Positions 8,632-35,874 of a stretch of 35,934 nucleotides of DNA are shown piece by piece. The first letter of the stretch is position 1; the number at the start of each line of letters is the position of its first letter. A model generated the notes under the pieces. That model was not told where the DNA came from, did no database searches, and saw nothing but the letters and a program-made list of their open reading frames with translations. A program made the translations under genes and the position numbers. The stretch spans positions 1 through 35,934 of the forward strand of contig MWCB01000014.1 in the NCBI GenBank assembly GCA_002069815.1. The letters run 5' to 3'. Origin of the DNA: Tenericutes bacterium ADurb.Bin239. Lineage in GTDB: Bacteria; Bacillota_I; Bacilli_A; RFN20; CAG-826.

Positions 8632-8650
8632 GTCAATGAAGGAGGTTCAA

Positions 8651-9964: not shown

Positions 9965-9976
9965 AGGAGGATGGCT

Positions 9977-11419: not shown

Positions 11420-11434
11420 TTAATTTATATCATT

Positions 11435-11465
11435 GCTCGAACATCGATTTTTTCGATGTTCGGGC
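11435..11465 (+). other. Stem-loop between binding-protein and permease genes
   Basis: GCTCGAACATCGA, loop TTTTT, TCGATGTTCGGGC (13-bp stem, one G-U pair), without a trailing U-tract. It ends 9 bases before the permease start codon and occupies the place of a ribosome site. Confidence 0.75.
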
Positions 11466-11474
11466 ATAGATTAG

Positions 11475-13246: not shown

Positions 13247-13260
13247 GAAGGAGTAACAAT

Positions 13261-14739
13261 ATGAAAACTAAATTATTTGTCGACAAAAATCTAACGATTG
13301 GTAAAGTTAGTGATCTTCTCTTTGGAAGTTTTATCGAACACTTAGGAAGAGCGGTATATACCGGTATTTATGAACCAGGACATCCGCTGGCCGATAAAGA
13401 TGGTTTCCGTCAAGATGTAATTGATTTAATTAGGGAACTTAAAGTACCAATGGTGCGTTACCCTGGTGGTAATTTCCTTTCTGGATATAATTGGGAAGAC
13501 GGAATTGGTCCTAAAGAAAAACGCCCAGTAAGACTAGATTATGCCTGGCAAACAATTGAAGATAATACGTTTGGCACTGATGAATTTATGAAATGGTGTC
13601 AAAAAGCTGGTGTTGAACCGATGATGGCGGTTAATTTAGGAACAGGAAGCCCCAAAGACGCTGGTAATATTGTGGAATATTGTAATTTCCCCCAAGGTAC
13701 TTATTATAGTGACTTACGAATTAAAAATGGTCATAAGGAACCATATAACATTAAATATTGGTGTTTAGGGAATGAGATGGACGGCCCGTGGCAAATATGT
13801 CACTTAAACGCGGAAGATTACGCTAAAAAGGCACTAGAAACAGCGAAGATTATGCGTTGGGTTGATCCGTCCCTTAAATTAATTGCTTGTGGATCTTCTA
13901 ATGCTGAAATTGAAACTTATCCTGATTGGGACCGTATCGTCCTTGAAACACTTTATGACCACATTGATTATATTTCAATGCATCGTTATTATTGGTATGA
14001 AGATAGTTTAGAAGATTTCTTTGCATCTTATCACGATATGGATAATTTTATTCATACGATTAAAAGTACCGCGGATTTTGTTAAAGCGAAAAAACGGTCC
14101 GATAAAGTTATGAAGATTTCCTTTGATGAGTGGAATGTATGGTATTTAAATAAATGGAAACCAGGCGGTTGGCAAAAGGCACCACATATTCTTGAAGATA
14201 ATTACTCATTAAAAGATGCTCTTGTCTTTTCTGGTTTACTTAATACTTTGGTAAATAATGTTGACCGCGTTGAAATTGCTGCTTTAGCCCAGCTTGTTAA
14301 CGTAATTGCGCCGATTTTTACAAAAGAAAAAGGTGGTGTTTTTAAACAAACAATTTTCTATCCGTTTTATGCGGTGTCAAATTATGGTCGCGGAGTAGCG
14401 TTAAAAGCGATTAAAACGGGACCTAAATTTAATTCCAAGTTTGGGGAAGTAAATTATGTTTCTGAAGCGGTGACTTTTAACGACAAGAAACGCGAAATTT
14501 CAGTATTCCTTGTAAATTACGCTAAAGAAGCGATGGAAGTTGAACTTGAACTTCGCTCCTTTGGTAATGTTAGTGCGCTTAGTCATAAGGTTATGACACA
14601 TAACGATTTAGAAATTAAAAATACATTCAATAACGAAAACGTTAAATTTGTTGAAGGTAAATTACCAACAATTAAAAATGATGTTGCGACCCTTAAATTA
14701 GGCCCGCTTTCATATCACGTTTATCGCTTTAAATATTAA
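13261..14739 (+). CDS. abfA: GH51 alpha-L-arabinofuranosidase, cytoplasmic
   Basis: 492 residues, the usual GH51 length, with no signal peptide. The acid/base Glu172 lies in CLGNEMDGPW and the nucleophile Glu290 in ISFDEWNVWY. The N-terminal part is a (beta/alpha)8 barrel with the RYPGGNFLSGYNWEDGIGP signature, and a beta-sandwich closes the protein (about 385-492). It removes terminal arabinofuranose from imported oligosaccharides inside the cell, supplying L-arabinose to AraA. AGAAGGAG precedes the ATG, 14 bases after the permease gene. Confidence 0.96.
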   Translation: MKTKLFVDKNLTIGKVSDLLFGSFIEHLGRAVYTGIYEPGHPLADKDGFRQDVIDLIRELKVPMVRYPGGNFLSGYNWEDGIGPKEKRPVRLDYAWQTIEDNTFGTDEFMKWCQKAGVEPMMAVNLGTGSPKDAGNIVEYCNFPQGTYYSDLRIKNGHKEPYNIKYWCLGNEMDGPWQICHLNAEDYAKKALETAKIMRWVDPSLKLIACGSSNAEIETYPDWDRIVLETLYDHIDYISMHRYYWYEDSLEDFFASYHDMDNFIHTIKSTADFVKAKKRSDKVMKISFDEWNVWYLNKWKPGGWQKAPHILEDNYSLKDALVFSGLLNTLVNNVDRVEIAALAQLVNVIAPIFTKEKGGVFKQTIFYPFYAVSNYGRGVALKAIKTGPKFNSKFGEVNYVSEAVTFNDKKREISVFLVNYAKEAMEVELELRSFGNVSALSHKVMTHNDLEIKNTFNNENVKFVEGKLPTIKNDVATLKLGPLSYHVYRFKY

Positions 14740-14751
14740 GGAGGAATTAAT

Positions 14752-16371
14752 TTGCAACGTTTCCGCTTTTTAGTTAGCATTGTCGTTTTAGCGCTTACTG
14801 CCTGTGGGGTCACTGCCACTAGTAGTGAAACAAGCGTTACCGAAGCAGCTATAACGTATCCCGCTAAACCATATAGTGATGATGATCACATTATGAAGAA
14901 GGATCCGTATGCTTTTTACAATATTGCCGGAAATGATACTCGTTATTGGGGGAGCGCTAATACTCATGATCCCGCTATTATTAAAGAAGGCGATTATTAT
15001 TACGCTTTTTCAACCGACGCGAATATTGGGGTTACGTCTCAAAAAGGAATTCATATTCGAAAATCAAGTGACTTAATTCATTGGGACTTTATTGGAACAG
15101 CCTTAGATTTACCAAGTCTTCAAGATGGGTTTGATTATGTGGGTTATGACCGAGATGGCACGAAAGTAGATATATGCTGGGCCCCTGATATTATTAAACG
15201 CGGTAATGAATTTTGGCTCTATTACTCCATCAGTGGTTTTGGCCAACGAAATTCTTTAATGGGTGTTGCTAAATCGCTAAACATTGAAGGACCTTACGTT
15301 CACGCTAAAGAAATACTAAGAACAAGTCAGAGTGTCGGGGGAACCCCAAATGCGATTGACCCCGCTATTTTTGTAGAAAAAGTAGGTGGAGTCGAGAAGA
15401 TGTATATGAGTTATGGTTCGTGGTCAGCGGGAATTTATATTATTGAACTTGATCCTGCTACTGGTTATCCGCTTATAGCGCAATCACTAGTGGAACGAGA
15501 AGTAACTGTTAATACCGCCGAACCTGGTGTAACAGCGACGGAAACTAAATTAGTGCCTAGTTCCGCCGATGATCCTGCTTTTGGGACTAAAATACTCAGT
15601 ATTACTGCAAGTGAAGCTCCTTATATTATTAAGGAAAATGGCTATTATTATTTATTCATAACGAATGGTGTTGATTTAACTTATGATTATGATGCACGAG
15701 TATTTCGAGCCACAAATATTTTAGGTCCATATATTGATGGTAAGGGTGTAGCAGCTCTTAGTTCGACTAACTATCACTCATTTCGCCCTTATGGTAATAA
15801 AGTAACAATTGCGCATCAATTTACGTATAACGATGATGACATTAATTATAAGCGTGGGTGGGCGGCTATTGGTCATTCAACTGCTTTTAAAGATAACGGG
15901 GAGTGGTTTTTTGCTTCCCATTATCGGGGGACTTATATGGACCGACATCGTTTTTTTCTCGGGGTATGGAAGATGCATTTTATCAACGATTGGCCCGTTC
16001 TTGAACCAAATCGTTACACTGGTGAAGGTAGTATTGATTTAGAAAAAGCGGATATAAGTGGTAATTATCGAATTCAAATTTTACATCAGTCCGCTGTTAA
16101 TTCAGCGCTTACTGATGACGTTATCTCTATTGTAAAGCGCGCTGAAGCAATTACGCTTACTACTGAAAAAGATGGTGATTGGTACCTTGTAAGTGGGGAA
16201 TATGGTGGTCGCTATCGCATTAATGAAGGACTACTTGAACTTGAACTAGATGGAACGCTTTATAGTGGACGTATTACTCCGCAGTTTAATTATGAGTTTG
16301 AAGAAGGAGTTCTTGGTTTATCACTAATTAATGATGAAGGAACAGCCCTGTGGGGTAATCGCATAGGTTAA
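14752..16371 (+). CDS. Second GH43 arabinanase lipoprotein, TTG start
   Basis: 539 residues. The start is TTG at 14752: AAGGAGG, overlapping the previous stop, sits 7 bases before it and the frame then gives a short signal ending in LTAC (Cys18). Catalytic residues of GH43 are visible as Asp73 (NTHDPAI), Asp203 (AIDPAIF) and Glu288 (ASEAPYI). A C-terminal beta-barrel domain from about 430 resembles that of the first GH43 protein. It has an inserted, charged loop between blades at about 245-280. It probably cuts arabinan with another preference than the first enzyme (for example branched or longer chains); specificity cannot be read from the sequence. Confidence 0.9.
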   Translation: MQRFRFLVSIVVLALTACGVTATSSETSVTEAAITYPAKPYSDDDHIMKKDPYAFYNIAGNDTRYWGSANTHDPAIIKEGDYYYAFSTDANIGVTSQKGIHIRKSSDLIHWDFIGTALDLPSLQDGFDYVGYDRDGTKVDICWAPDIIKRGNEFWLYYSISGFGQRNSLMGVAKSLNIEGPYVHAKEILRTSQSVGGTPNAIDPAIFVEKVGGVEKMYMSYGSWSAGIYIIELDPATGYPLIAQSLVEREVTVNTAEPGVTATETKLVPSSADDPAFGTKILSITASEAPYIIKENGYYYLFITNGVDLTYDYDARVFRATNILGPYIDGKGVAALSSTNYHSFRPYGNKVTIAHQFTYNDDDINYKRGWAAIGHSTAFKDNGEWFFASHYRGTYMDRHRFFLGVWKMHFINDWPVLEPNRYTGEGSIDLEKADISGNYRIQILHQSAVNSALTDDVISIVKRAEAITLTTEKDGDWYLVSGEYGGRYRINEGLLELELDGTLYSGRITPQFNYEFEEGVLGLSLINDEGTALWGNRIG

Positions 16372-16385
16372 GAAAGGAGACATAT

Positions 16386-17690
16386 ATGTATTTAGGAATT
16401 GAATTTGGTTCAACCCGGATTAAAGGAATTGTTTTAAATGATAATTTTGAAGTAGTAGCGTCAGGAAGTTATTTATGGCAATCAACTTTAAAAGACGGCT
16501 ACTGGACATACGACTTAGCGGAAGTTTGGCAAGGGATGAATGAAGTTATTGATGAAATTGCTAAAGAAATTGATGTTAAAAAAATAAAGTCACTTGGTGT
16601 ATCAGCAATGATGCACGGTTTTTTACCATTTGATAAAAACGGAAAACTCTTAACCTCCTTTAGAACTTGGAAGAATGTCAATACGGAAGTAGCGGCTGCC
16701 GAGTTATCAAAATTATTTGAATTCAATATTCCACTTCGTTGGTCAATTGCTCATCTTTATCAAACTTATTTAGATAAAGAAAAATATGTATCTGAAATTG
16801 CTTATTTTACAACCCTAGCGGGTTATGTCCATATGTGTCTTACTGGTAAAAATGTTTTAGGGATTGGTGACGCAAGCGGGATGTTCCCTATTGATGTAAA
16901 AACGGGCCAATATGATTTAAAAATGATTAAAACGTTTAATAAATTAACAAACATGAAACTTGAAGAATTACTTCCAGTTATCATAGAGGTCGGGCAAAAT
17001 GCCGGTGAATTAACAAAAGAAGGGGCTAAATTACTTAATAATAAACTTCCAGTCGGTCTTCTTCTTGCGCCACCAGAAGGTGATGCAGAAACGGGAATGG
17101 TATCGACAAATGCTCTTAAACCTAAGACGGGTAACGTCTCCGCGGGAACATCCGTTTTTTCGATGATTGTTTTAGAAAAAGCACTTACTAAATGGTATCC
17201 CGAAATTGATATTGTACAAACCCCAACGGGTGATGCCGTCGCGATGGTGCACGCTAATGAATGTACATCGCGGATTGATCCGTGGATTGAGCTTTTCGGG
17301 GAAGCGATTGCAAGAGTGAGCGGCAGTGTTGATCGTGATAAACTTTTTGAAACACTCTACGAAGTAGCGCTTGAAGATACGCCGCTGGGTAACTTTATGA
17401 AAGAACGTCTCGTGGAAGCAATTATTGATTTAAAAACGGGAATGGATATTTTACTTCAGCAAGAAAAAGTAAAAATTGATTATTTATTAGGACATGGTGG
17501 TTACTTTAAATCTAAAAGCGCTGGGGCCAAAGTTATGAGCGAAACGCTTGGGATTCCTATCCGTTTATTAGAAACCGCAGGGGAAGGCGGGCCATGGGGA
17601 ATGGCGGTATTAGCCGCTTATCGTTATATTAATCAAACAAAGAAAATTAAATTTGATGCATTTATAAATCAAGTATTTAAAGGAGAATAA
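16386..17690 (+). CDS. FGGY-family carbohydrate kinase, predicted L-ribulokinase
   Basis: 434 residues. The N-terminal IEFGSTRIKG is the phosphate-1 loop of FGGY kinases. A catalytic Asp is expected at Asp233 in PPEGDAETG, and GNVSAGTSVFSM and LLGHGGYFKSKSAG form the C-terminal nucleotide-binding part. It is clearly shorter than classical AraB (about 550 residues) and belongs to another FGGY branch. Since araA and araD follow directly, it most likely phosphorylates L-ribulose to L-ribulose 5-phosphate; a xylulokinase-like role is the alternative. GAAAGGAG precedes the ATG; the gap to araA is 3 bases. Confidence 0.88.
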   Translation: MYLGIEFGSTRIKGIVLNDNFEVVASGSYLWQSTLKDGYWTYDLAEVWQGMNEVIDEIAKEIDVKKIKSLGVSAMMHGFLPFDKNGKLLTSFRTWKNVNTEVAAAELSKLFEFNIPLRWSIAHLYQTYLDKEKYVSEIAYFTTLAGYVHMCLTGKNVLGIGDASGMFPIDVKTGQYDLKMIKTFNKLTNMKLEELLPVIIEVGQNAGELTKEGAKLLNNKLPVGLLLAPPEGDAETGMVSTNALKPKTGNVSAGTSVFSMIVLEKALTKWYPEIDIVQTPTGDAVAMVHANECTSRIDPWIELFGEAIARVSGSVDRDKLFETLYEVALEDTPLGNFMKERLVEAIIDLKTGMDILLQQEKVKIDYLLGHGGYFKSKSAGAKVMSETLGIPIRLLETAGEGGPWGMAVLAAYRYINQTKKIKFDAFINQVFKGE

Positions 17691-17693
17691 ATT

Positions 17694-19130
17694 ATGAAAA
17701 CATTTTGGTTTATTGTTGGGTCACAATTTCTCTACGGAGAAGAAACATTACGACAAGTTGAAGAAAACGCGAAAACAATCGCAAAAGGATTAAAAACAAA
17801 GTATCCTGTCGTTTATAAAGGCACGGTTAAAACGTATGACGAAGCAATGCGCCTTATTAAAAGCGCTAATTATGAAGAGGAGTGTCTGGGTGTTATTACC
17901 TTCTGCCATACCTTTTCACCATCAAAGATGTGGGCTAATGCCTTAAAAGCATTACAAAAACCGTGGTGCCATTTCCATACGCAGTTTTATGATGAAATTC
18001 CGAACGAAGAAATTGATATGGATTATATGAATCTCCACCAATCAGCGCATGGTGATCGTGAGCACGGATTTATTGGGACGCGGTTACAAAAGAAGCGGAA
18101 AGTGATTGTTGGTCATTGGCAAGACCCAAAAACAAGTGTAGCTATTTCTAATTGGCAAGATGTTGTTGCCGCGGTAAATGAAAGTAAATCTCTTCGTGTT
18201 ATTCGCTTTGGTGATAATATGCGCGAAGTCGCGGTTACTGAAGGCGATAAACTTGAAGCGCAAACAAAACTTGGCTGGCAAGTAAATACAATTGGTGTTG
18301 GTGCCCTTGTTGAAGAAATTAAAGCGGTAACTAAAGCCGAACTTAACGCTAAACTTGCCGAATATAAAAAGAATTATGTTCTTAACACTGACAATTTAGC
18401 GTCAATTGAATATCAAGCCAAAGCAGAAATTGCTATGAAAAAGATTCTTGATGAAAATAACGCTAAAGCTTTTACTAATACATTTGAAGATCTCTATCAT
18501 ATGGAGCAACTTCCCGGGCTTGCAACCCAAAACTTAATGAAAATGGGATATGGATATGGCGGAGAGGGGGACTGGAAAACCGCGGCCATGACTCGAATTA
18601 TGAAAGCAATTGGCAAAGTAGCGACTTTTATGGAAGACTATACATATGACTGGAAACAGGGATTAATTCTGGGAGCCCATATGCTTGAAGTTTGTCCTTC
18701 AATCGCGGCCGCTAAACCAAAGATTGAAGTACATCATTTAGGCATTGGGGGGAAAGATGCTCCTGCGCGGTTAGTGTTTGAAGGTAAGCAAGGGAACGCA
18801 AAAGCTATCTCTCTAATTGATTTAGGTAATAGGTTCCGTCTTATTGCTCTTGATGTTGAATGCGTGAAACCGACAAAATCAATGCCAAACTTACCAGTGG
18901 CTCGGGTGATGTGGAAACCACTACCTGACTTAGAAACTTCAGCAGCGTGCTGGTTAATAGCAGGCGGCGCCCACCATACGACTCTAATCTATGACTTGTC
19001 ACTTGAATTCTTACGTGACTTTACAAATTTACTCGATATTGAGTTTGTCCATATTGGTAAGGACGCTGATCCTTATGTTCTCGAACAAATGATGAAAAAC
19101 AATGATATTTATTACCGATTAAGGGGGTAA
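17694..19130 (+). CDS. araA: L-arabinose isomerase
   Basis: 478 residues, close to the family length. It converts L-arabinose to L-ribulose in the cytoplasm with Mn2+. The four metal and catalytic residues are present: Glu291 (GEGDWKTAA), Glu314 (FMEDYTYDW), His329 (LGAHMLEV) and His428 (GGAHHTT). The N-terminal FWFIVGSQFLYGEETL is diagnostic. AAAGGAG lies before the ATG. It is the middle gene of the kinase-araA-araD trio, with gaps of 3 and 4 bases. Confidence 0.98.
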   Translation: MKTFWFIVGSQFLYGEETLRQVEENAKTIAKGLKTKYPVVYKGTVKTYDEAMRLIKSANYEEECLGVITFCHTFSPSKMWANALKALQKPWCHFHTQFYDEIPNEEIDMDYMNLHQSAHGDREHGFIGTRLQKKRKVIVGHWQDPKTSVAISNWQDVVAAVNESKSLRVIRFGDNMREVAVTEGDKLEAQTKLGWQVNTIGVGALVEEIKAVTKAELNAKLAEYKKNYVLNTDNLASIEYQAKAEIAMKKILDENNAKAFTNTFEDLYHMEQLPGLATQNLMKMGYGYGGEGDWKTAAMTRIMKAIGKVATFMEDYTYDWKQGLILGAHMLEVCPSIAAAKPKIEVHHLGIGGKDAPARLVFEGKQGNAKAISLIDLGNRFRLIALDVECVKPTKSMPNLPVARVMWKPLPDLETSAACWLIAGGAHHTTLIYDLSLEFLRDFTNLLDIEFVHIGKDADPYVLEQMMKNNDIYYRLRG

Positions 19131-19134
19131 AGGT

Positions 19135-19827
19135 ATGTATCAAGCATTAAAAGAAAAAACTTATAAAGCTAATATGGCTATTAAAAAATCAGGTCTTGTT
19201 CTTTTTACATGGGGAAATGTCTCAGTTAAAGACGATACTTTAAAAGTAGTGGCCATTAAACCATCAGGTGTCGCTTATGAAACAATGACGATTAATGATA
19301 TCGTAGTAGTGGATTTTGCTGGCAATATCGTTGAAGGAGAAATGCGTCCTTCCGTTGATCTGCCATCGCACCTTGCGCTCTACAAAGCTCATCCTGAAAT
19401 TGGGGCCATAGTCCATACGCACTCAACCTTTGCAACAGCGTGGGCGCAAAAAGGACGCGCAATCCCGATGTATGGAACAACGCACGCTGATTACTTTAGT
19501 GATGACATCCCGTGCGCGGATTATTTAAGTGCAGAAGAAATGCAAGATTATGAAAAAAATACGGGTGTCGTCATTGCTAAACTTATTAAGGCAGGTCACG
19601 CTAATGAACTCCCGGCGGCAATTGTTAAGGGACACGGTGCTTTTGCGTGGGGTAAAAATGCAAAAGACGCTGTTTATCACGCAGTGGTCCTTGAAGAAGT
19701 GGCAAAGATGGCTTATCTTACGGAAGCAATCCCCGGACCAAATAAGGTATTACCTAAGCATATTCGTGACACGCATTACACGCGAAAACATGGTCCCAAT
19801 GCAAGTTATGGACAAAAGAAAAAGTAA
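19135..19827 (+). CDS. araD: L-ribulose-5-phosphate 4-epimerase
   Basis: 230 residues, the standard length. It belongs to the class II aldolase/epimerase fold. The zinc ligands are His94 and His96 (IVHTHST) and His167 (VKGHGAF); Asp76 (SVDLPSH) is the usual catalytic acid. GTTHADYFSDDIPC is a strong family signature. It makes D-xylulose 5-phosphate, the exit to the pentose phosphate or phosphoketolase route. It is the last gene of the operon, 28 bases before a strong terminator. GGGGG-type ribosome site within the araA end. Confidence 0.98.
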   Translation: MYQALKEKTYKANMAIKKSGLVLFTWGNVSVKDDTLKVVAIKPSGVAYETMTINDIVVVDFAGNIVEGEMRPSVDLPSHLALYKAHPEIGAIVHTHSTFATAWAQKGRAIPMYGTTHADYFSDDIPCADYLSAEEMQDYEKNTGVVIAKLIKAGHANELPAAIVKGHGAFAWGKNAKDAVYHAVVLEEVAKMAYLTEAIPGPNKVLPKHIRDTHYTRKHGPNASYGQKKK

Positions 19828-23177: not shown

Positions 23178-23954
23178 TTAATTAACTTTTTTCTTAAGGA
23201 AGAAGTAACCACCAAGTGATAAGACACCAAAGGCACCAATAGTAAGAACGGCAAATAATGCAGTGTTATCATTATCCGCTAATCTGACAGGTGAGCCAGC
23301 AATAGGAGTAGTGATGCTATAGCGCGCCTTGAGATAGTTGAGACGATCTAAGCCAGTTTTACCACCACCAACGTTTAATGCTTTATATTGATTTTGTTCA
23401 AAAGTTGCAAGTCCATTGAATATATTAATCGCATCAGTAGCGGCTTCAGGAGAACAAGCTTCTGCAGCAGTGTCAATCGTGGCCGCAAAATCAGAAACAA
23501 CTTTGGTAGTTTTAATGGTTTGCCCCATAAAATAATGCGCAGTATTGCCATTTGGTGTTGTGCCTGTTGTCACATAATTTATGCCAACTTCGCCAGATAA
23601 TTCAATTGTATCAGTTCGTTCTAACATGACCGCATCGCTATCAGTTACGATGAAAATAACGTGAGTTACTGCAGTGGGGAAATCAATATACCACGCGGCA
23701 TTTTCACTATTATCGTATGTTAATGGTGTGCCTGGAAGACCCACAGATACTTCATCACCCCAATAAGTTGCTCTAATAACATTACTGGGACTTTGCCAGT
23801 TAGCAGATGCCATATCAGTAGCTAACCAGACTCTTTTGGTGATCTCAGATGCGTAAGTACGGACCGCATCTTGCTTCTTAAGTGCGTGACTAGCGCCAAA
23901 TGCTACTGAACCAAATAACAATCCAACAGTTAACAATCTAGTTAATTTTTTCAT
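23178..23954 (-). CDS. Membrane-anchored surface protein with CBM26-like domain, copy 1
   Basis: 258 residues. Signal peptide at about 1-22, no lipobox. Residues about 40-130 contain RATYWGD, PGTPLTYD and AWYIDFPTAVTHVIFIV, resembling CBM25/26 starch-binding modules (a strand with Tyr-Trp, a W/L-P-G turn and a final V-I-F strand). The next segment (about 165-225) has two motifs shared with copy 2: TFEQNQYKALNVGGGKTG and LDRLNYLKARY. A C-terminal membrane helix ends in FFLKKK; there is no LPxTG. GAGAGG precedes the ATG at 8 bases. It probably binds alpha-glucan or another glycan at the cell surface; this is inferred from weak motif likeness. Confidence 0.85.
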   Translation of the reverse strand: MKKLTRLLTVGLLFGSVAFGASHALKKQDAVRTYASEITKRVWLATDMASANWQSPSNVIRATYWGDEVSVGLPGTPLTYDNSENAAWYIDFPTAVTHVIFIVTDSDAVMLERTDTIELSGEVGINYVTTGTTPNGNTAHYFMGQTIKTTKVVSDFAATIDTAAEACSPEAATDAINIFNGLATFEQNQYKALNVGGGKTGLDRLNYLKARYSITTPIAGSPVRLADNDNTALFAVLTIGAFGVLSLGGYFFLKKKVN

Positions 23955-24136: not shown

Positions 24137-24934
24137 TTAATTAAATTGCTTTTTCTTTAAGAAGAAATAACCACCTAATGATAAAATACCAAGGCCACTA
24201 ATAGTAAGAATGGCAAACATTGCAGTTTTTTCATCATCAGTAATTCTAACTGGTGAACCGGCAAGGGGAGTAGTAATACCATAGCGGGCTTTAAGATAGT
24301 TAAGTCGATCTAAACCAGTTTTACCACCACCAACATCCATAGCTTTGTATTGGTTTTGTTCAAAAGTAGTGAGGTTATCATTAAAGGTATTAATTGCTGC
24401 TTGTGCTTTTGTAGCAGAACATGCTCCAGCAGCGGTATTAATACTTAAGTGGAAGTTGTTTACAACGACAGTAGTATATGGTTGCCCAGCAGGAAAGGCG
24501 ACAAAACTTCCTGGAGTTGTACCCCCGCCCCAGACAATAGGACCAGTTAAATCGAAATACTTACCAACGCTATCAGTGTAAGTAAGATCTGCTGTTTTTG
24601 CGCCCCAATCTTGTGTACCATCACCGCTCACGCGAATGAACATGTAGTGGGTAACATCATTTGGTAAATCGTAATAACATTTTTCATTGTTTTGATCCCA
24701 TTTTACTAAAACACCAGGCCAAGCTGTTCCGGTTGCACCACCCCAGTAATGAATTGCCGTGGCCGCACCATCTTTATCCCAGTCTGCGGTTATTGAGTTT
24801 TTCATCCATACCCATTTGGTTAGTGAAGATGCTTCTGTTCGTACTGCGTCTTGTTTATTAACAGCAGTTTTTACACCAAAAGCAACAGCGCCAAATAATA
24901 AACTGACAGTTAAAATTTTAATTATTTTTTTCAT
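24137..24934 (-). CDS. Membrane-anchored surface protein with CBM26-like domain, copy 2
   Basis: 265 residues, paralog of the next gene to the left. Signal peptide (about 1-22), then a domain with WVWMKN, AIHYWGG, TAWPGVLVKWD and CYYDLPNDVTHYMFIRV. The AWPG turn and closing aromatic strand are the core of CBM26 starch-binding modules, clearer here than in copy 1. The shared region with TFEQNQYKAMDVGGGKTG and LDRLNYLKARYG, and a C-terminal membrane helix ending FFLKKK, complete it. GAGGAGGG precedes the ATG at 6 bases. It has its own terminator, so the two copies are separate transcription units. Confidence 0.86.
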   Translation of the reverse strand: MKKIIKILTVSLLFGAVAFGVKTAVNKQDAVRTEASSLTKWVWMKNSITADWDKDGAATAIHYWGGATGTAWPGVLVKWDQNNEKCYYDLPNDVTHYMFIRVSGDGTQDWGAKTADLTYTDSVGKYFDLTGPIVWGGGTTPGSFVAFPAGQPYTTVVVNNFHLSINTAAGACSATKAQAAINTFNDNLTTFEQNQYKAMDVGGGKTGLDRLNYLKARYGITTPLAGSPVRITDDEKTAMFAILTISGLGILSLGGYFFLKKKQFN

Positions 24935-25089: not shown

Positions 25090-25689
25090 TTATCTTTTAG
25101 TGAAAAACCATAGTATTTGCGCTAATTGAGCAGGGATGCCAAGTAAGAATATTAACCAAAGATTAACACTAGTTAAAAACAAAATATGTAAGTATATAGC
25201 GGCAAGGACTGACCACCAGAAAACACTAAAGATAGCAAGGTGATATACTTTGTTGCCCCACATTTTGTTATAGAAATAAAGGACTAAACAGGAAATAGGC
25301 ACGCCAGTAACGAATATTAACCATCCGTTTTCTCCGTAGTCTCCTAAACTATTTTTAAACATAAGGGTGTAAATAAAACCAACTAAGGCAAAAGTCCACA
25401 CGATTGAAACACTAAAAAGAATAACAAATATTCGCTGAACTCTTTTTCCTTTTTGCTTTGGAGTACTCTTTATAGGAAAATTTTCGTCAAGAAGATCAGC
25501 GACAGTGATACCAAAATATTCGGCAATAGCGGCTAGTGTTTCAACATTTGGTGTTGCTTCACCCCGTTCCCAACGACTCACCGCATTGTCGCTATAATTT
25601 ATTTTACTAGCCAAATCTTGCTGTGTTAGGTCGTGTGTTCGCCGTAAGAATATAAGATTGTTAGCGATTACTTTACTAATATTGTCCAT
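25090..25689 (-). CDS. XRE-family HTH protein with four membrane helices
   Basis: 199 residues from the ATG at 25689 (MDNISKVIANNL), which has AAAGGAG at 8 bases; a longer frame to 25779 lacks a ribosome site. Residues 3-60 are a Cro/C1-type HTH (LTQQDLASKINYSDNAVSRW, then GEATPNVETL). After a basic linker come four hydrophobic helices (about 80-195). Such HTH-membrane fusions are common in Bacillota and are thought to be membrane-tethered regulators. The signal and target genes are unknown. It is divergent from the glycolipid cassette and might control it. Confidence 0.88.
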   Translation of the reverse strand: MDNISKVIANNLIFLRRTHDLTQQDLASKINYSDNAVSRWERGEATPNVETLAAIAEYFGITVADLLDENFPIKSTPKQKGKRVQRIFVILFSVSIVWTFALVGFIYTLMFKNSLGDYGENGWLIFVTGVPISCLVLYFYNKMWGNKVYHLAIFSVFWWSVLAAIYLHILFLTSVNLWLIFLLGIPAQLAQILWFFTKR

Positions 25690-25804
25690 AAACTTCGCTC
25701 CTTTACATTCGAAAAAATTGTAGCAATTATGGGTGTTTTTGTCAAATTCCCAGATTTTGAGAATTAGATTCTTAAACATTGATAATCATTTTTCACTAAT
25801 TCCC

Positions 25805-25850: not shown

Positions 25851-26627
25851 ATGAAACAAAAGCGAATTCTTTATTACACTGACCCCCTGAATGAAGATTT
25901 CGGGCCGAAACCGCGTAATCTTAAAGTGATTACTGGTAATTATCGCTATAATCGCGATAACTTTTGGGTGCGTATCTTTGATTTCTTCACCTATCGTTTC
26001 ATCTTAACCCCAATTGCGTTTATCTACACGAAGTTAATAGCGAAAATTAAGTTAGTAAATAAAAAGTTACTTAAAGATTTACGCAAAGAAGGAGTGATTG
26101 TGTACGCGAATCATACTCACCCCCAAGCCGATGCTTTTGGTCCAAATATTTATTTCTTTCCTCAAAAAGTTAGTATGGTCACTAATAGCGCAAATGTTTC
26201 GCTCCCTATCTTAGGAAATCTTACCAAAGCGTGGGGCGCCTTGCCGCTTCCTGAAGATTACACGGCGAGTAAGAATTTCCTAAAAGAGTTGGCGTTAAGA
26301 CTAAAGCGTAAAGGAGTGGTAGTTATTTATCCTGAGGCGCATCTTTGGCCTTATTACACGAAGATTCGCCCCTTTACTTATAACAACTTTGCCTATAGCG
26401 TGAAGTTTAATGTTAAAAGTTATGTGTTAACTACCACTTATCAAACAAAACGAAACGGAAAACTTAAAAGAGTTGTCTATCTTGATGGCCCTTTTAGTCT
26501 TTCACCACTGCTCACTAATAAAGAAGCCGCTGTCGCGCTTCGTGATGAAGTTTTTAAAGTGATGAATGAAAGAAGTAAATTATCAACTTATGAAAAGTAT
26601 GAATACGTTCAAAGGAGTAAAGCATGA
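25851..26627 (+). CDS. PlsC-like acyltransferase, first gene of glycolipid cassette
   Basis: 258 residues. The acyltransferase motif reads NHTHPQAD (Asn87-Asp94), i.e. His-x5-Asp instead of the usual His-x4-Asp; this longer spacing is seen in a subgroup with NHTQPxxDAF. A second conserved block is VVIYPEAHLWPYYTKIRPF (about 157-175). Hydrophobic residues near 47-62 may touch the membrane. It should transfer an acyl chain from acyl-ACP or acyl-phosphate to a glycerol- or sugar-type acceptor at the inner face of the membrane. It overlaps the next gene by 4 bases (ATGA). The acceptor is unknown. Confidence 0.87.
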   Translation: MKQKRILYYTDPLNEDFGPKPRNLKVITGNYRYNRDNFWVRIFDFFTYRFILTPIAFIYTKLIAKIKLVNKKLLKDLRKEGVIVYANHTHPQADAFGPNIYFFPQKVSMVTNSANVSLPILGNLTKAWGALPLPEDYTASKNFLKELALRLKRKGVVVIYPEAHLWPYYTKIRPFTYNNFAYSVKFNVKSYVLTTTYQTKRNGKLKRVVYLDGPFSLSPLLTNKEAAVALRDEVFKVMNERSKLSTYEKYEYVQRSKA

Positions 26628-27436
26628 ATATAGTATTTGCCGGAAACTATAAAGTATTTAAAGGGATGCTCTTAGGGGCTTTAAGTATTATTAAGCACTA
26701 TAAGGACAAAGTGCATTTTTACATATTAACAATGGATCTTCAAGAAGTAGATTCTGATTATATTACGGTAAGTGAGGAAAATATTAAATTACTTGAAAGT
26801 GTTGTAAAAGAAGTAAACAATGATTCAAGAGTAACAAAGATTGATGTAACTAGTCTCTATGTTAAAACACTACTTGAAAGTCCAAATAGTAAAACGCGTT
26901 ATACCGCTTATACTTTATTACGTTTACTATTAGATAAAATTCCGCGTATACCAAATAAAGTTTTATACTTAGACACTGATGTGCTAGCGTTTAACAATAT
27001 TAGCGAACTTTATAACATCGATATAAGTAATTATGAACTCGCGGGAGTAAAAGACCGCTACGGGCGTTTCTTTATGGGACCCTGTTACTTAAACGCAGGA
27101 GTCTTACTTTTTAATATGAAGAAGATTAAAGAGACGGGGTTATTTAAAAAATGCCGTGATTATCTAAATAAAAAGAAAGTATTCTTAAGTGATCAAACGG
27201 CAATTAATAAGTATGTGAAGCAAAAGAAAATACTTAAACGCCGCTTTAATGAACAAAAGAAAGTAAAAAAAGATACAGTCGTGCGTCACTTTAGTATGCA
27301 ATTTCGTCTCTTTCCTAAATTTCATTTTGTCAACATTAAACCGTGGCATAAACAAAGATTACATAACGAATATAAGTGTCACCATTTTGATGACATTTTA
27401 GAAAAATACGAAACAATAACAAAGGAACAATTATAA
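26624..27436 (+). CDS. GT8-family glycosyltransferase A
   Basis: 270 residues. The GT8 fold (GT-A) is shown by the N-terminal NIVFAGNYKVFKGML, the metal-binding DTD at 117-119 in KVLYLDTDVLAF, and the LNAGVLLFNMKKIKE acceptor-side segment. The Lys/Arg-rich C-terminus suggests contact with acidic lipids. It uses a nucleotide-sugar (UDP-glucose or -galactose in known members). It starts inside the stop of the acyltransferase gene and is followed by another GT8 gene after 2 bases, so it likely adds a sugar to the same lipid. Confidence 0.9.
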   Translation: MNIVFAGNYKVFKGMLLGALSIIKHYKDKVHFYILTMDLQEVDSDYITVSEENIKLLESVVKEVNNDSRVTKIDVTSLYVKTLLESPNSKTRYTAYTLLRLLLDKIPRIPNKVLYLDTDVLAFNNISELYNIDISNYELAGVKDRYGRFFMGPCYLNAGVLLFNMKKIKETGLFKKCRDYLNKKKVFLSDQTAINKYVKQKKILKRRFNEQKKVKKDTVVRHFSMQFRLFPKFHFVNIKPWHKQRLHNEYKCHHFDDILEKYETITKEQL

Positions 27437-27438
27437 TT

Positions 27439-28383
27439 ATGAAAAAAGAAATACCAATATTTTTTGCTTGTGATGATAACTATATTCCGCTGTTAGGAAC
27501 GGCCTTGCATACGCTTATTAAGCACGCAAGTAAGGATTATAATTATACAGTGATCGTATTAAACGCTGGACTGAAGCAAATAAATAAGCGTCGTGTAAAA
27601 ACTTTAGAGAAGAAAAATAAAAACTTGAAAGTTAAGTTTGTAAACATTAGTGACTTAATTAATAAACATTACAGTGAACTAGCGCTTCGGCTTCGTGATT
27701 ATTATAGCGTTGCTATTTATTACCGGATGTTTATTCCCACTCTTTTTAAAGAGTATGATAAGGCGATCTATTTAGACGCTGATTTAATTTTATTAGATGA
27801 TATTAGTGAACTCTATAATACAGATATTGAGGGAAAACTAGTAGCGGCGATTAATGATAAGCTTGTAAGTACTGTTCCCGTTTTTGCAAATTACGCGAAT
27901 AATGCCGTGGGAATTGATGCGAATGAGTACTTTAATTCAGGAGTGTTAGTAATGAACTTAAAGAAGTTTAGAGAAGATGATATTGAGACAAAATTTCTTA
28001 ATCTTCTAGAAAAATATAATTTTGATACGATTTGTCCCGATCAAGATTATTTAAATGTTTTATGTAAGGATGATAAAGTTTTACTGCCGACAGGATGGAA
28101 TAAAATGCCGCTTTATGATCCGGAGTTTGATTACACAACATTAAAACTTGTGCACTATAATTCATTTGAAAAACCTTGGCATCATGATCATGTATTGTAC
28201 GCAGATAAGTTTTGGGAAGCGGCCGAAGGTAGTCCTTTCTTTGAAGACTTAAAAAAGATTAGAGAAAATGTGGGTGAAGCTCATTTACAAAAAGAAGAAA
28301 AAGGAGTAAAGGCCTTAGTGGAAAAAGCTACTTACTTAGCGACAAGCGAAGAAGTAACTTTTAAAAAGGTCTTAGCGTTATAG
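27439..28383 (+). CDS. GT8-family glycosyltransferase B
   Basis: 314 residues. IPIFFACDDNYIPLLGTAL at the N-terminus, the DAD metal site (113-115, AIYLDADLILLDD), FNSGVLVMNLKKFRE and a late HYNSFEKPWHH motif mark a canonical GT8 enzyme like LPS or teichoic-type galactosyl/glucosyltransferases. A helical tail of about 50 residues follows. It is distinct from GT8 A, so the product probably carries two sugars. An AAAGGA site lies in the end of the previous gene. Confidence 0.92.
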   Translation: MKKEIPIFFACDDNYIPLLGTALHTLIKHASKDYNYTVIVLNAGLKQINKRRVKTLEKKNKNLKVKFVNISDLINKHYSELALRLRDYYSVAIYYRMFIPTLFKEYDKAIYLDADLILLDDISELYNTDIEGKLVAAINDKLVSTVPVFANYANNAVGIDANEYFNSGVLVMNLKKFREDDIETKFLNLLEKYNFDTICPDQDYLNVLCKDDKVLLPTGWNKMPLYDPEFDYTTLKLVHYNSFEKPWHHDHVLYADKFWEAAEGSPFFEDLKKIRENVGEAHLQKEEKGVKALVEKATYLATSEEVTFKKVLAL

Positions 28384-28387
28384 TTTT

Positions 28388-29176
28388 ATGAAAGATATTT
28401 TCGCGGCCTTACGTCCCAAAGTAAATGAAAACATAAAAAAAGCCATTGCCGCTGGTGATTTAAACGCGAAAGTAATGCCTGGAGACCACGTTGTTACTAA
28501 AGCAGAACGAGCAAAATATGTTGTTACTTATGACTTAGAAAAGAAAACCTTACGCAGTAAAGTTAAACGGATATTCGGAAATATTGCCGCTAATAAAAAA
28601 ACAAGAGATATCGCTAAATATATTGAAACTAATGGTTTAGAAAACGCCTTGCCTTTAAAAGGTAAAGCGTTTATTTTAACAAGCAATCACTATTCTCCCT
28701 ACGACAACTTAATTGCGAGACACTTAACAAATAAACTCGGTTATAAAAATAAGTTAAGCATTATTATTAATGAAAGCAATATCTTTATGCCAGGGAAATT
28801 AGGTAAAATACTTCGCAGTGTTGATGTTTTACCTTACGCTCAAGATTTTGAATATTTAGGCAAAAGATTTAATCCCGCTATTGGAAATGCTCTAAAGAAA
28901 AAAAGAGTAGTCTTAATCTATCCAGAACAAGAAATGTGGTTAGATTACCCGCGTACTAGACCACTTAAACCAGGCGCGTATCATTACGCTGCTAAGTTTA
29001 ATGTTCCGATCCTTCCTATTTTTGTAACATGGAAAAAAGATGAAGAAGGCGTTACTAAGTACATTATTAATATTGGTAAGCCGATATATAGTGACACTAA
29101 GCTTAGTCTTGCAGTTAATAAGAAGAATATGCTTACCGCTGATGACTCCTTTAAAAAGAGTATTAGTCCAAAGTAA
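28388..29176 (+). CDS. PlsC-like acyltransferase, last gene of glycolipid cassette
   Basis: 262 residues. The first about 90 residues are polar. The canonical NHxxxxD motif is NHYSPYD (100-106), followed by VLIYPEQEMWLDYPRTRPL and FNVPILPIFVTW. It differs from the first acyltransferase in motif spacing, so the two likely act on different positions or intermediates. The gene starts 4 bases after GT8 B and lacks a clear ribosome site, suggesting translational coupling. The hairpin at 29221-29243 can end the transcript. Confidence 0.88.
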   Translation: MKDIFAALRPKVNENIKKAIAAGDLNAKVMPGDHVVTKAERAKYVVTYDLEKKTLRSKVKRIFGNIAANKKTRDIAKYIETNGLENALPLKGKAFILTSNHYSPYDNLIARHLTNKLGYKNKLSIIINESNIFMPGKLGKILRSVDVLPYAQDFEYLGKRFNPAIGNALKKKRVVLIYPEQEMWLDYPRTRPLKPGAYHYAAKFNVPILPIFVTWKKDEEGVTKYIINIGKPIYSDTKLSLAVNKKNMLTADDSFKKSISPK

Positions 29177-29281: not shown

Positions 29282-29298
29282 GTTACCATTTTGGTAAG
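29282..29298. promoter_or_regulatory. Operator O2 of the toxin-antitoxin operon
   Basis: GTTACCATTTTGGTAAG, i.e. TTACCA, TTT, TGGTAA, at the expected transcription start. Its centre is 61 bp from that of O1. Most likely bound by the HTH antitoxin. Confidence 0.7.
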
Positions 29299-29311
29299 AA
29301 AGGAGTCATAT

Positions 29312-29665
29312 GTGGAAATTATCTATGATGATAACGAGGTAGAAAAAGTATTCAATGACTTCGAAATGATGAAAAGGAAAAAAGGGGCTGAAATAACGCG
29401 AAAAATTAAAAATAGGTACGACATCTTAGTAGCAGCAATAAACTTTATGGAATACCTAAACATTACCCCAGGCAAACCACATGCTCTCCAACAAAATAGA
29501 AAAGGACAGTATGCAGTTAGTGTCGATAAGAATAAGAGATTAATTATAGAACCTATAACAGATAATAACGACCTAAGTCCAAAAGCCTTAGAAAAATGTG
29601 AGAAAGTAATTATAAAAGGAGTGATAGATTATCATGGCGGAAAAGAAACAACATACATCCCGTGA
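29312..29665 (+). CDS. HigB/RelE-like toxin, GTG start
   Basis: 117 residues from GTG 29312, which has AAAGGAG 6 bases upstream. An in-frame TTG at 29291 lies in operator O2, and the ATG at 29310 is out of frame and closes after 10 codons. The pattern RYDILVAAINFMEYL, NITPGKPHALQ and RKGQYAVSVDKNKRLIIEP resembles HigB/killer-type RelE-fold toxins (basic helix, then R-K-G-Q-Y strand and Arg on the next strand), which cut mRNA on the ribosome. The order toxin then antitoxin, with a 32-base overlap, is typical of higBA. The assignment rests on pattern and context. Confidence 0.78.
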   Translation: MEIIYDDNEVEKVFNDFEMMKRKKGAEITRKIKNRYDILVAAINFMEYLNITPGKPHALQQNRKGQYAVSVDKNKRLIIEPITDNNDLSPKALEKCEKVIIKGVIDYHGGKETTYIP

Positions 29666-30548
29666 CTTGTTAATTCATCCTGGTGAAACTTTAGCAGAAA
29701 TCATTGAAGAACGAGGATATTCTCAAAAAGAATTAGCAATTAGAACTGGTGTTTCAGAAAAACATATTTCTAGTGTCATAAACGGTAAAAGTAATATCAC
29801 CAATGAATTTGCGCAAAAACTTGCAATTGCACTAAATAGTAGTAGTACATTTTGGATTAATCTACAAGCTAATTATGATAATGAACTATTCTACATTGAA
29901 CAAAATGCGAATATCACAATTGAAGAGCGAAAAATTGCTAATAAAATTAAAAAACCAGTTGAAAATATTCTAGGCTACAAGATTAGTGATAAACAACATA
30001 ATGAAGATATACATGAGTTACGGCGAGTATTAGGATTAAATAATCTTACTATTCTTAAAAATATTTCTTTTAATGAAAAAGATCGTAATCTTTTAGTAAA
30101 TCAAACGCTAAGCGATATAGAAATATACATATATCAATATTTATTAGAACAAAAAGCCCGTGGTCAAAATGTTGATGAGTTTGATGCGGAAAGATTAAAA
30201 AAGAGAGTAACAAATATTAAAAAAATAATGTTTGAAAAAAATGATAATGTTATTCATCTTCTTCAAGAAGAATTAAATGAGAGTGGCATCTATTTTTTAG
30301 TTTGTGAAGAAAATAAAATCCCAATTGAAAGCATAACCTTTAAAACAAAAACCAAAAGACCGCTGATTGCATTAACATACGAAGAAAATGAAAAGGATAA
30401 ATTTTGGTTTGATTTATTTTATGAAATAGGCAAAATCCTTCTTAGAGATTTTAAGCAAGTGAAAATAAATAATGAAATGAATAAAAAACTAGATAAAGCG
30501 GCAAACGAATTTGCTAATGAAGCAATTATGGATTCTAAAAGATATTGA
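29634..30548 (+). CDS. higA: HigA-like antitoxin fused to a degenerate ImmA/IrrE domain
   Basis: 304 residues, much longer than plain HigA (about 100). Residues 10-80 are the HigA HTH (IHPGETLAEIIEERGYSQKE, then LAIRTGVSEKHISSVINGK and STFWINLQANYD). A helical middle follows, and the C-terminus looks like an ImmA/IrrE metallopeptidase: KDKFWFDLFYEIGKILL is the HExxH helix, but both His are lost (Tyr263, Lys267), while AANEFANEAI keeps the later family motif. The chain stops just after it. It should neutralise the upstream toxin and repress the operon at O1/O2. Loss of zinc ligands argues against protease activity. Stop is TGA. Confidence 0.88.
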   Translation: MAEKKQHTSRDLLIHPGETLAEIIEERGYSQKELAIRTGVSEKHISSVINGKSNITNEFAQKLAIALNSSSTFWINLQANYDNELFYIEQNANITIEERKIANKIKKPVENILGYKISDKQHNEDIHELRRVLGLNNLTILKNISFNEKDRNLLVNQTLSDIEIYIYQYLLEQKARGQNVDEFDAERLKKRVTNIKKIMFEKNDNVIHLLQEELNESGIYFLVCEENKIPIESITFKTKTKRPLIALTYEENEKDKFWFDLFYEIGKILLRDFKQVKINNEMNKKLDKAANEFANEAIMDSKRY

Positions 30549-31372: not shown

Positions 31373-32575
31373 ATGAGTTTAGATGTATACATAGGACCAA
31401 ATGGTTTTGGTAAAACAACAAAATTAAATAATGTAAGAGATGATCTAATTGATTCAAAAGGCGTTCCCAAAAATGAAATTATATTTTTAAATTCAGAAAT
31501 TCTTTTAGTAGATGAAATGAAAGATACAAGAGATGAAAGTAAAACGATGGAATTTATAATTAACGAAGTGTTAAGTACTCCTGCACTTGAGATTGCCCGG
31601 CAACAATATGAAGAAGCAGTGGATAACGAAATTAATGCAAATGTAGATCGTATTAATAAAATTATTGATGACATATTATCAATAAATAATCAAGACAGGA
31701 ACATCAAAAAAGGTAAAAGCTCCGAATCTCTAAAAAATTTTATAGAAACCACTGAACAAAAAGAATACAAGAAATTAGTGAAAATAAATAGGGAAATAGC
31801 AGAAAAGAAAATGGGCAGTGGGCAAAAAATGCAATTAATACTCGCGTTGATTAAAGAAAGTTCAAAGAGTTATATTTTTCTCGATGAACCAGAAAAATAT
31901 TCACATCCTTCTTTGTTGCACAAAACAGCAAAACTGATTGAAGAAATATCGAAAACGAAAACAGTTTATATGGCTACTCACTCACCTAAGTTACTATCTA
32001 TGATTGATTTAGATATTTCGAGAATTTTTATTTTCAATGATAATTCTTATACTCCAAAAGTCATAGATTTTGTCAAAGTATGTAATAAATATAGTAGTTA
32101 TGCTAAAAAGGCGGGATTGAAGAAAAAAGAATTAACATATTTTAATGAAACAACATTACGAGACAATATTAAAAAATTTCATTATAGAGATTTTATTGAA
32201 GCATTATTTTCGAAAAGAGTGTATTTAGTAGAAGGTATAAATGACATTTTATTTATAAACAAAATGTTAAGAGACAACAATTTATACTATGAGGACTACA
32301 AAATCCTTCCATCATATGGAAAACATCGTATGATGTTATTTGCTGAATTATTTGAAAGTTTGGATATAGAAGTACATCTTTATTTTGATGAGGATGATGT
32401 TTCTCATATGATTCACAGTTACACGAATACTGAATTGTGTAAATTTCGACATTATTATATATTTAAGGAAAATCTTGAGGATGATTTAAAATTTATTGGC
32501 GATAAAAGTAATCAAATTGATTTTTCTAATCATTTAGAATCTATAATAATAGATTCTAAATACATTTGCTCTTAA
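31373..32575 (+). CDS. OLD/PARIS-like ATPase-TOPRIM protein, probable defence nuclease
   Basis: 400 residues. The N-terminal ABC-type ATPase has Walker A GPNGFGKT (8-15), signature GSGQKMQ (148-154), Walker B YIFLDEPE (167-174, Asp171/Glu172) and the switch His203 (ATHSPKLLSM). A linker leads to a TOPRIM-like domain: VYLVEGINDILF with Glu287, a SYGKHRMM turn and YFDEDD with Asp339/Asp341. This is the layout of OLD nucleases and of fused AriA-AriB (PARIS). It is shorter than most OLD proteins. AAGGAGG lies 7 bases before the ATG. Its partner gene follows after 105 bases. Most likely an ATP-controlled nuclease in phage defence. Confidence 0.87.
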   Translation: MSLDVYIGPNGFGKTTKLNNVRDDLIDSKGVPKNEIIFLNSEILLVDEMKDTRDESKTMEFIINEVLSTPALEIARQQYEEAVDNEINANVDRINKIIDDILSINNQDRNIKKGKSSESLKNFIETTEQKEYKKLVKINREIAEKKMGSGQKMQLILALIKESSKSYIFLDEPEKYSHPSLLHKTAKLIEEISKTKTVYMATHSPKLLSMIDLDISRIFIFNDNSYTPKVIDFVKVCNKYSSYAKKAGLKKKELTYFNETTLRDNIKKFHYRDFIEALFSKRVYLVEGINDILFINKMLRDNNLYYEDYKILPSYGKHRMMLFAELFESLDIEVHLYFDEDDVSHMIHSYTNTELCKFRHYYIFKENLEDDLKFIGDKSNQIDFSNHLESIIIDSKYICS

Positions 32576-34920: not shown

Positions 34921-35874
34921 CTAGGATATATATTTTGACAATTTTTTAAATAATTCATCTGGATTATATTCTTTAGATAATGACAAAGCATTGTTTCGCA
35001 TTTGCAGCATTTTTTCTGGATTTGAGTATAAAAGCATCACTTTTGAAACGATATCATCAACATTTTTAATGGGTACTAAAAAGCCATTGAAACCATCAAG
35101 TATAAACTCACTATTAAAACGCCAATTAGTTCCAATTATTGGCAAGGCTGATAAATATGAATCAATAATGACACCAGGATGCGCTTCCCCCACATAAAAT
35201 GTTGGAAAAAGCATGCACAAATATGTTTTTAACAAACTTGTGGTTTTATCAAAATCAGCAATACCTTTATAAAAAACATAGCCCTTATGTTTTTCTAAGA
35301 GCTCGTTAAATCTTTCTTCATATTCTGGAGCAATTTTACCATAAACATCCAATATAAAATCACTTTTTTCTTGTAATTTTTTAACAGCTTCTATCGCATA
35401 CTCAATACCTTTATCATATGCAACTCTAGAAAAAAAACAGAGACTTTTGAGATTTATTCCATCCAAACTTGTTAATTTTTCTATTGGCGCTATATTCTTA
35501 AAATTAGGGAAGTACTTAACTTTTTTTAAACCAATGTCCTGTAATTCTTCAACCTGTTTATGAGATTGTACCAACAATACTTCATATTTATTAAGATAGC
35601 GGACATATTTTTTGTTTTTACTAAGGAAAATTGGCAAGGAGCCTCCCACAACTATATAAACAATTTTTCTTTTCGCAAAAAAACTTAAGAAATTATACAA
35701 TTTTGAAATAACTTTTAATCCATTATTTGCTGGAAGAATAAAAATATTTTTAGATTTAAAATAAAGGTTTATTGTTTGGAAAAAAAATCGGAAAGGTCGT
35801 TTTTTCCAATTATAGGTGCTAGCTATTGTAATATTTTCATTTCCATAATGTTTTTTTAGTAATAGAAGAAAAGG
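34921..35874 (-). CDS. GT4-family glycosyltransferase, 5' end disrupted
   Basis: The C-terminal part is a clear GT4 Rossmann domain: SLCFFSRVAYDKGIEYAIEA (sugar-donor loop), DVYGKIAPEYEERF, and the acidic EAHPGVIIDSYLSALPIIGT region. The first usual start codon is a TTG at 35700 with no clear ribosome site, giving 259 residues. However, the frame stays open to 35874 and reads KKHYGNEN, TYNWKKRPF and NIFILPANNGLKVISKLYNF, which fits the missing N-terminal domain. A TAA at 35877-35875 blocks it, and no ATG, GTG or TTG occurs between 35874 and 35701. The gene is thus probably frameshifted, truncated or misassembled near the window end. It would make a surface polysaccharide or glycolipid. Confidence 0.75.
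   Translation of the reverse strand, partial: PFLLLLKKHYGNENITIASTYNWKKRPFRFFFQTINLYFKSKNIFILPANNGLKVISKLYNFLSFFAKRKIVYIVVGGSLPIFLSKNKKYVRYLNKYEVLLVQSHKQVEELQDIGLKKVKYFPNFKNIAPIEKLTSLDGINLKSLCFFSRVAYDKGIEYAIEAVKKLQEKSDFILDVYGKIAPEYEERFNELLEKHKGYVFYKGIADFDKTTSLLKTYLCMLFPTFYVGEAHPGVIIDSYLSALPIIGTNWRFNSEFILDGFNGFLVPIKNVDDIVSKVMLLYSNPEKMLQMRNNALSLSKEYNPDELFKKLSKYIS

Follow-up and report, generated by a model that had tools for sequence, protein, structure and literature searches.

What a bacterium makes with two glycosyltransferases enclosed by two acyltransferases is the question raised by a compact four-gene cassette of Tenericutes bacterium ADurb.Bin239 (Genome Taxonomy Database lineage Bacteria; Bacillota_I; Bacilli_A; RFN20; CAG-826). 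The window analysed, 35,934 nucleotides in all, comprises positions 1-35,934 of the forward strand of contig MWCB01000014.1 (GenBank assembly GCA_002069815.1). The cassette occupies 25851-29176, where four plus-strand open reading frames (ORFs), here named PlsCa, GT8a, GT8b and PlsCb as genes 1 to 4, follow one another with a 4-base overlap between PlsCa and GT8a and then gaps of 2 and 4 bases. An earlier note on this DNA had described this PlsC-GT8-GT8-PlsC arrangement with the same spacings, and ORF coordinates and Pfam assignments agree with it (Table 1), all four proteins scoring above the curated Pfam cut-offs of 24.3 bits for PF01501 and 23 bits for PF01553. We found that the cassette has more parts than that note gave, namely a divergent regulator gene and two operator-like sites. 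We judge, at slightly better than an even chance, that the locus is a regulated operon in which two glycosyltransferase-acyltransferase couples, PlsCa with GT8a and GT8b with PlsCb, would produce a sugar-acylated membrane glycolipid.

Table 1. Positions of the cassette genes and of the adjoining regulatory elements in the window
Feature	Position	Strand	Description
PlsCa	25851..26627	+	258 aa; PlsC/lysophospholipid acyltransferase (LPLAT)-fold acyltransferase; PF01553, 28 bits
GT8a	26624..27436	+	270 aa; family 8 glycosyltransferase; PF01501, 82 bits (82.4)
GT8b	27439..28383	+	314 aa; family 8 glycosyltransferase, LgtC/WbbM type; PF01501, 167 bits
PlsCb	28388..29176	+	262 aa; PlsC/LPLAT acyltransferase; PF01553, 39 bits
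Divergent regulator	25090..25689	-	Cro/C1-type helix-turn-helix (HTH) protein; Pfam HTH_3, 53 bits; four predicted C-terminal transmembrane segments
Operator 1 (putative)	25745..25765		palindrome AATTCCCA-N5-TGAGAATT; TTCCC-N7-GRGAA kept in 5 genomes
Operator 2 (putative)	25767..25787		GATTCTTAAACATTGATAATC; weaker tandem copy 22 bases downstream, aligned in the same 5 genomes

The proposal that the four genes form one pathway, which the note had been prepared to abandon if their order proved not to be conserved, has survived the comparison with related genomes: the order PlsCa-GT8a-GT8b-PlsCb was found in 12 further loci, with protein identities of 28-91% depending on the gene and the distance, and GT8b and PlsCb are fused in many relatives. 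These loci belong to the same genus (G002 and G003, the latter with disrupted reading frames and a stretch of N), to three other genera of the family (G023, G034 and G037), to three families elsewhere in the order or class (G051, which has an extra GT8b, G053, G066 and G144) and to metagenome-assembled genomes labelled Clostridia or Ruminococcus (L034, L035, whose contig ends within GT8b, and L037); loci L033 and L042 lie on one contig. Since the order recurs in other genera and families, the arrangement is not a product of chance. Among 392 sampled genomes of the phylum, 89 had PlsCa-like matches and 27 had GT8a, and all eight of the top-scoring GT8a genomes carried PlsCa directly adjacent; the cassette is thus a genuine but patchy unit.

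Domain fusions tie the genes together more closely. GT8b and PlsCb form a single ORF of about 590-630 residues in L037 (586 aa), L044-L048, L051, L106, L131 and L139, both Pfam domains being found in the one fusion that was scanned, and every fusion seen joins GT8b to an acyltransferase of the PlsC type. Loci lacking GT8a have PlsCa homologues fused with or adjacent to a family 4 glycosyltransferase (GT4); by Pfam, this fusion exists in both domain orders (GT4-PlsC in G275 and PlsC-GT4 in G014), and a second PlsC clade likewise includes GT4-PlsC fusions, from further families of the class. A GT4 or GT8 gene lies within 1.5 kb in 24 of the 30 best PlsCa loci, against a chance adjacency roughly estimated at a few per cent if a genome of this size holds about ten such genes. 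The best NCBIfam scores of the PlsCa-linked GT4 proteins include, far below cut-off, those to lipid glucosyltransferases such as IagA/BgsA and Mgs. Rearranged versions of the cassette (L036, L104 in G276 and L150 in G251) and partial ones (L107 and L113, and also L056 and L108, which carry a family 2 glycosyltransferase, GT2) also occur, and the three rearranged loci together with L107 and L113 might suggest that the four genes are mere neighbours acting on unrelated acceptors. We regard this as scarcely credible, because it is largely refuted by the fusions, and the genes co-occur repeatedly even after rearrangement.

No GT8 genes other than GT8a and GT8b were found in this genome of 1.29 Mb. 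Both are assigned to GT8 by Pfam, and neither has the identity of a GT4 diacylglycerol glucosyltransferase (Mgs, Dgs or BgsA). The DxD metal motif and the C-terminal H...KPW are present in both, being invariant in one alignment (A4) and nearly so in another (A1); specifically, D117/D119, H222 and K239/W241 of GT8a are invariant among 14 homologues, as are D113/D115, H239 and K245-P-W247 of GT8b in its homologue alignment. Because both motifs are retained, the two proteins look like active enzymes, and members of this family use nucleotide-sugar donors and retain the alpha configuration on transfer. The relatives of GT8b in the PDB are WbbM and LgtC, which the GT8 half of a modelled GT8b-PlsCb fusion also matched in a fold search; the alignments behind the predicted models used here were shallow, with 5 and 7 sequences, and the prediction is poor across the linker of the fusion protein. 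The cassette enzymes share the family and the catalytic motifs of LgtC and WbbM, whereas the latter act on lipooligosaccharide or O-antigen acceptors and have no acyltransferase partner. Alternatively, the cassette might assemble an oligosaccharide or a surface glycan on a polyprenyl or protein carrier and decorate it with the acyl group. The solved GT8 relatives, LgtC (lipooligosaccharide), WbbM (O-antigen) and GlyE (adhesin glycan), point in that direction, as do the GT2 genes inside or adjoining some cassettes and the GT8a-like paralogues of relatives that are fused to ATP-binding cassette (ABC) transporter ATPases or lie beside LPG-synthase-type membrane proteins. However, the loci read show no recurrent polymerase, flippase or priming transferase alongside the cassette, and in the fusions seen GT8b is joined only to PlsC-type acyltransferases, so we consider a glycan product distinctly unlikely.

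Longer GT8a-like proteins, of about 595 aa, were observed at L140:2415-4196, L141:4005-5792, L142:11524-13308, L143:4470-6257, L158:12128-13912 and L159:4847-6631, and several of their genes adjoin a gene for a protein of about 340 aa. In L140 and L142, Pfam places an ABC-transporter ATPase domain at the C-terminus of the GT8a-like ORF, and in L142 a gene for an ABC-2 membrane protein is adjacent as well; a fusion of glycosyltransferase and transporter ATPase would be unusual. GT8a-like genes were also seen beside a gene for an LPG_synthase_TM (PF03706) membrane protein at L146:5589-6734, L151:5279-6505 and L152:5136-6287.

The two acyltransferases differ from each other, as the note had read, in their catalytic His-Xn-Asp motif, NH-THPQA-D in PlsCa (HX5D) and NH-YSPY-D in PlsCb (HX4D), and each form is invariant among the respective orthologues; H88, D94 and E162 of PlsCa are invariant in 13 of them. 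HX5D was found in every GT8a-linked PlsCa examined and in some GT4-linked ones; it was ruled out as a universal mark of the PlsCa clade, GT4-linked members having either HX4D or HX5D. In place of FPEGTR, PlsCa has the signature YPEAHxWPxYTxIRPF (YPEAHLWPYY in the window) and PlsCb the signature YPEQxMWxxYxxxRPLKxGA (YPEQEMWLDY in the window). Against TIGR00530, PlsCb scored 27.5 bits (cut-off 102.95) and PlsCa was unmatched; with neither FPEGTR nor a score above this cut-off, both proteins fall outside the canonical 1-acylglycerol-3-phosphate acyltransferases. The genome has a canonical FPEGTR-containing PlsC on contig C5 and another, distant PlsC on C7. In the tree, PlsCb forms a clade of its own (100/92), and PlsCa and its GT4-linked relatives form another (100/99). 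A housekeeping role in acylating lysophosphatidic acid for the cassette acyltransferases (ACYLTRANSFERASES) was therefore excluded by the motifs, the tree and the canonical copy elsewhere.

A PDB sequence search with the cassette acyltransferases gave no useful match. The predicted PlsCa model (pLDDT, the per-residue confidence, 67; pTM, the predicted template-modelling score, 0.72) supports a PlsC/LPLAT fold. Its best matches by E-value are LpxM of lipid A and PatA of the mycobacterial phosphatidylinositol mannosides, which resemble the proposed enzymes in that the same fold acylates a sugar-bearing lipid, but differ from PlsCa in sharing only about 10% identity, in belonging to another branch of the superfamily and in working with different glycosyltransferases. 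By template-modelling (TM) score, the PlsC of T. maritima ranks highest among the relevant fold matches. The nearest characterised biochemistry of PF01553 is the acylation of lysophosphatidic acid, and in G053 the cassette is immediately followed by the only canonical PlsC of that genome and by a YegS/DAGK lipid kinase, a placement that ties it to glycerolipid metabolism. These three observations would also suit an alternative in which the PlsC-like enzymes acylate a glycerol backbone or lyso-lipid and the GT8 enzymes glycosylate it, giving a self-contained route to a diglycosyl diacylglycerol with unacylated sugars. We consider this unlikely, since a canonical PlsC is already encoded elsewhere in the genome, PlsCa and PlsCb lack FPEGTR and lie in separate clades, and CrtO-type neighbours suggest sugar esters.

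Such a neighbour, a gene for a CrtO-type acyltransferase, lies immediately downstream of GT8b-PlsCb in six loci; the assignment (Pfam: glycosyl-4,4'-diaponeurosporenoate acyltransferase) was made on one member, which the others match. CrtO esterifies the glucose of staphyloxanthin, in whose synthesis the glycosyltransferase CrtQ acts first and the acyltransferase CrtO then acts on the sugar. The logic of glycosyltransferase followed by acyltransferase is thus the same as that proposed for the cassette, although CrtO lies outside the PlsC family, CrtQ is not a GT8 enzyme and the acceptor is a carotenoid. The six loci could also indicate that the product itself resembles staphyloxanthin, being a terpenoid, or some other lipid without glycerol, that carries sugar and acyl groups. 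This is very unlikely: the window cassette lacks a CrtO-type neighbour, and no gene for a carotenoid or terpenoid backbone was seen among the neighbour proteins scanned (a genome-wide search for squalene/phytoene synthase was not made).

The rest of the genome, which is 94% complete and was examined by family searches, bears on both the acceptor and the setting. No match was found to PF04101 (MurG-type glycosyltransferase, GT28), PF00905 (penicillin-binding protein transpeptidase) or PF00884 (LtaS-type sulfatase/polyglycerolphosphate synthase). As MurG-type GT28 and transpeptidases were not found, the gene content fits a wall-less organism, and the wall-poor context invoked by the note holds to that extent; to call the cassette the pathway of wall-less bacteria would overstate the case, because the unit is conserved but patchy. 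The note had further proposed an acylated diglycosyl lipid, perhaps a lipoglycan anchor. An acylated glycosyl lipid remains the best reading of the linkage, but the lipoteichoic acid or lipoglycan anchor was rejected for want of PF00884, a strong though not absolute absence at this level of completeness. A GT4 enzyme on contig C12 scored above the curated cut-off as an IagA/BgsA-family diacylglycerol glucosyltransferase and below it against the model for the processive enzyme Dgs (419 bits, cut-off 500). The note had remarked that wall-poor or Mycoplasmatota-related bacteria usually use GT4 or GT2 enzymes; the usual GT4 type exists here as well, so that GT8 is no simple substitute, and replacement of GT4 by GT8 in this genome was rejected. 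Since this conventional diglucosyl-diacylglycerol-type GT4 is present, the cassette comes on top of it; the organism probably has the ordinary glucolipid chemistry too, which could supply the acceptor.

Two further observations were made in the same genome (G000). GlmU is encoded at contig C13:33698-34345 although MurG and the transpeptidases were not found, and therefore uridine diphosphate (UDP)-N-acetylglucosamine may serve glycolipid or glycan synthesis. On contig C12 (L175:3765-5616), the IagA/BgsA-type GT4 gene is convergent with that for a distant relative (91 bits, cut-off 225) of Mf1, the glycolipid cholinephosphotransferase of Mycoplasma fermentans, and a phosphocholine-glucolipid route is possible.

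We infer the function of the cassette from gene linkage, and on this basis propose the following steps. The GT8 enzymes would act at the cytoplasmic face, each adding one sugar from a nucleotide sugar in alpha linkage; the lipid acceptor would most likely be either diacylglycerol or the glucosyl-diacylglycerol that the GT4 encoded in this genome makes. Next, the PlsC-like enzymes would attach fatty acids to hydroxyls of the sugars through ester bonds, and the product would be a mono- or diglycosyl lipid bearing acyl groups. The two couples would work in series, each acyltransferase esterifying the fresh product of its glycosyltransferase, and the membrane-bound HTH regulator would control the cassette through the two tandem operators. 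Action on a lipid acceptor appears well supported by the linkage, and sugar acylation by the PlsC-like enzymes appears moderately supported. Several points weigh against this reading: sequence alone reveals no substrate; GT8 enzymes elsewhere also make lipopolysaccharide cores and polysaccharides; characterised PlsC relatives mainly acylate glycerol, so that the backbone glycerol might be what receives the acyl group; the fold matches of PlsCa, the relevant ones among them led in TM-score by the T. maritima PlsC, are of moderate quality (TM 0.4-0.5); and the full cassette is missing from most genomes of the family. In addition, the PF00483 search yielded GlgC, GlgD and GlmU only and no GalU-type UDP-glucose pyrophosphorylase, leaving UDP-glucose unproven as the donor.

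Acylated glucolipids of Acholeplasma are the nearest natural products to the sugar-acylated glycolipid proposed here. The glucolipid pathway of Acholeplasma and Firmicutes (Mgs and Dgs; BgsB/BgsA and IagA; all GT4), whose products are mono- and diglucosyl-diacylglycerol, likewise adds two sugars in turn to a membrane lipid, whereas the cassette has GT8 in place of GT4 and two dedicated acyltransferases that are often fused to a glycosyltransferase. The genome G172, which we take to be that of Acholeplasma laidlawii, has a true Mgs, and its PlsCa-like match falls outside the PlsCa and PlsCb clades, so an orthologous link to that organism was rejected. The glcABC operon for glucosedilipid in Rouxiella resembles the cassette in that GlcB, an enzyme of the PlsC superfamily, acylates the sugar of a glucolipid by adding the second acyl chain to glucose (PMC12299268), a direct precedent for the sugar acylation proposed here. 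It differs in having an enzyme of the GCN5-related N-acetyltransferase (GNAT) type and a phosphatase but no glycosyltransferase, and in making a glucose lipid, not a glycosylated membrane lipid. In the literature searched, the coverage of which was partial, we came across neither a GT8-PlsC nor a GT4-PlsC unit. The enzyme families are all known; the new part is the dedicated, often fused acyltransferases within bacterial membrane glycolipid synthesis.

More broadly, and as a tentative suggestion to which we assign rather less than an even chance, the pairs and fusions of GT8-PlsC and GT4-PlsC may constitute a family of acyl-glycolipid synthases, widespread in small-genome Bacilli, that attach a sugar to a lipid and acylate the newly added sugar, the two couples in series in the window organism yielding a multiply acylated diglycosyl lipid (saccharolipid). 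Sugar-acylated glycolipids are known natural products for some of which the acyltransferase is unassigned, as is stated for the cholesteryl acyl-galactoside of Borrelia (PMC8168883). If true, such a family would supply the kind of acyltransferase missing for the sugar-acylated glycolipids of wall-less and other bacteria, and would partly account for the membrane chemistry of Bacilli that are uncultured and apparently lack a wall, where a saccharolipid could help to stabilise the membrane. A natural GT8-PlsC fusion within a compact four-gene unit is one expressible, assayable protein, which makes the question directly testable.

The listed ORF of the divergent regulator extends to 25779, and the start conserved across its family is Met31. 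Orthologues occupy the matching position in the other cassette loci of the family, in two Clostridia-labelled loci and in G022, and the same kind of HTH protein adjoins some GT4-PlsCa pairs. The best score of operator 1 exceeded 98.8-100% of shuffles per genome in the 5 genomes, the consensus being derived from the same sequences; these statistics cover operator 1, operator 2 having been recognised by alignment alone. The predicted promoter of the regulator gene has its -35 and -10 boxes at 25745-25717 on the minus strand, and operator 1 overlaps the -35 box. The pair of operators and the HTH gene likely represent a local, autoregulated switch.

Elsewhere in the window, 4675-19827 holds a cluster for arabinan and arabinose utilisation (LacI-type regulator, arabinanases, ABC transporter, arabinofuranosidase, sugar kinase, AraA and AraD). 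The minus-strand genes at 23178-23954 and 24137-24934 encode an exported-looking pair of paralogues with a common C-terminal block (VGGGKTGLDRLNYLKARY...), a C-terminal membrane segment and a KKK tail; neither matches Pfam. Directly 3' of the cassette, at 29291-30548, lie genes for a HigB-like toxin, scoring below cut-off, and a HigA-type antitoxin with a long C-terminal extension, and 31373-32575 encodes an ATPase with an OLD-like TOPRIM domain and weak similarity to the defence proteins GajA and Old. Finally, a GT4-family ORF of 259 aa on the minus strand (34921-35700) aligns with its relatives in their C-terminal half only and is perhaps truncated or frame-shifted.

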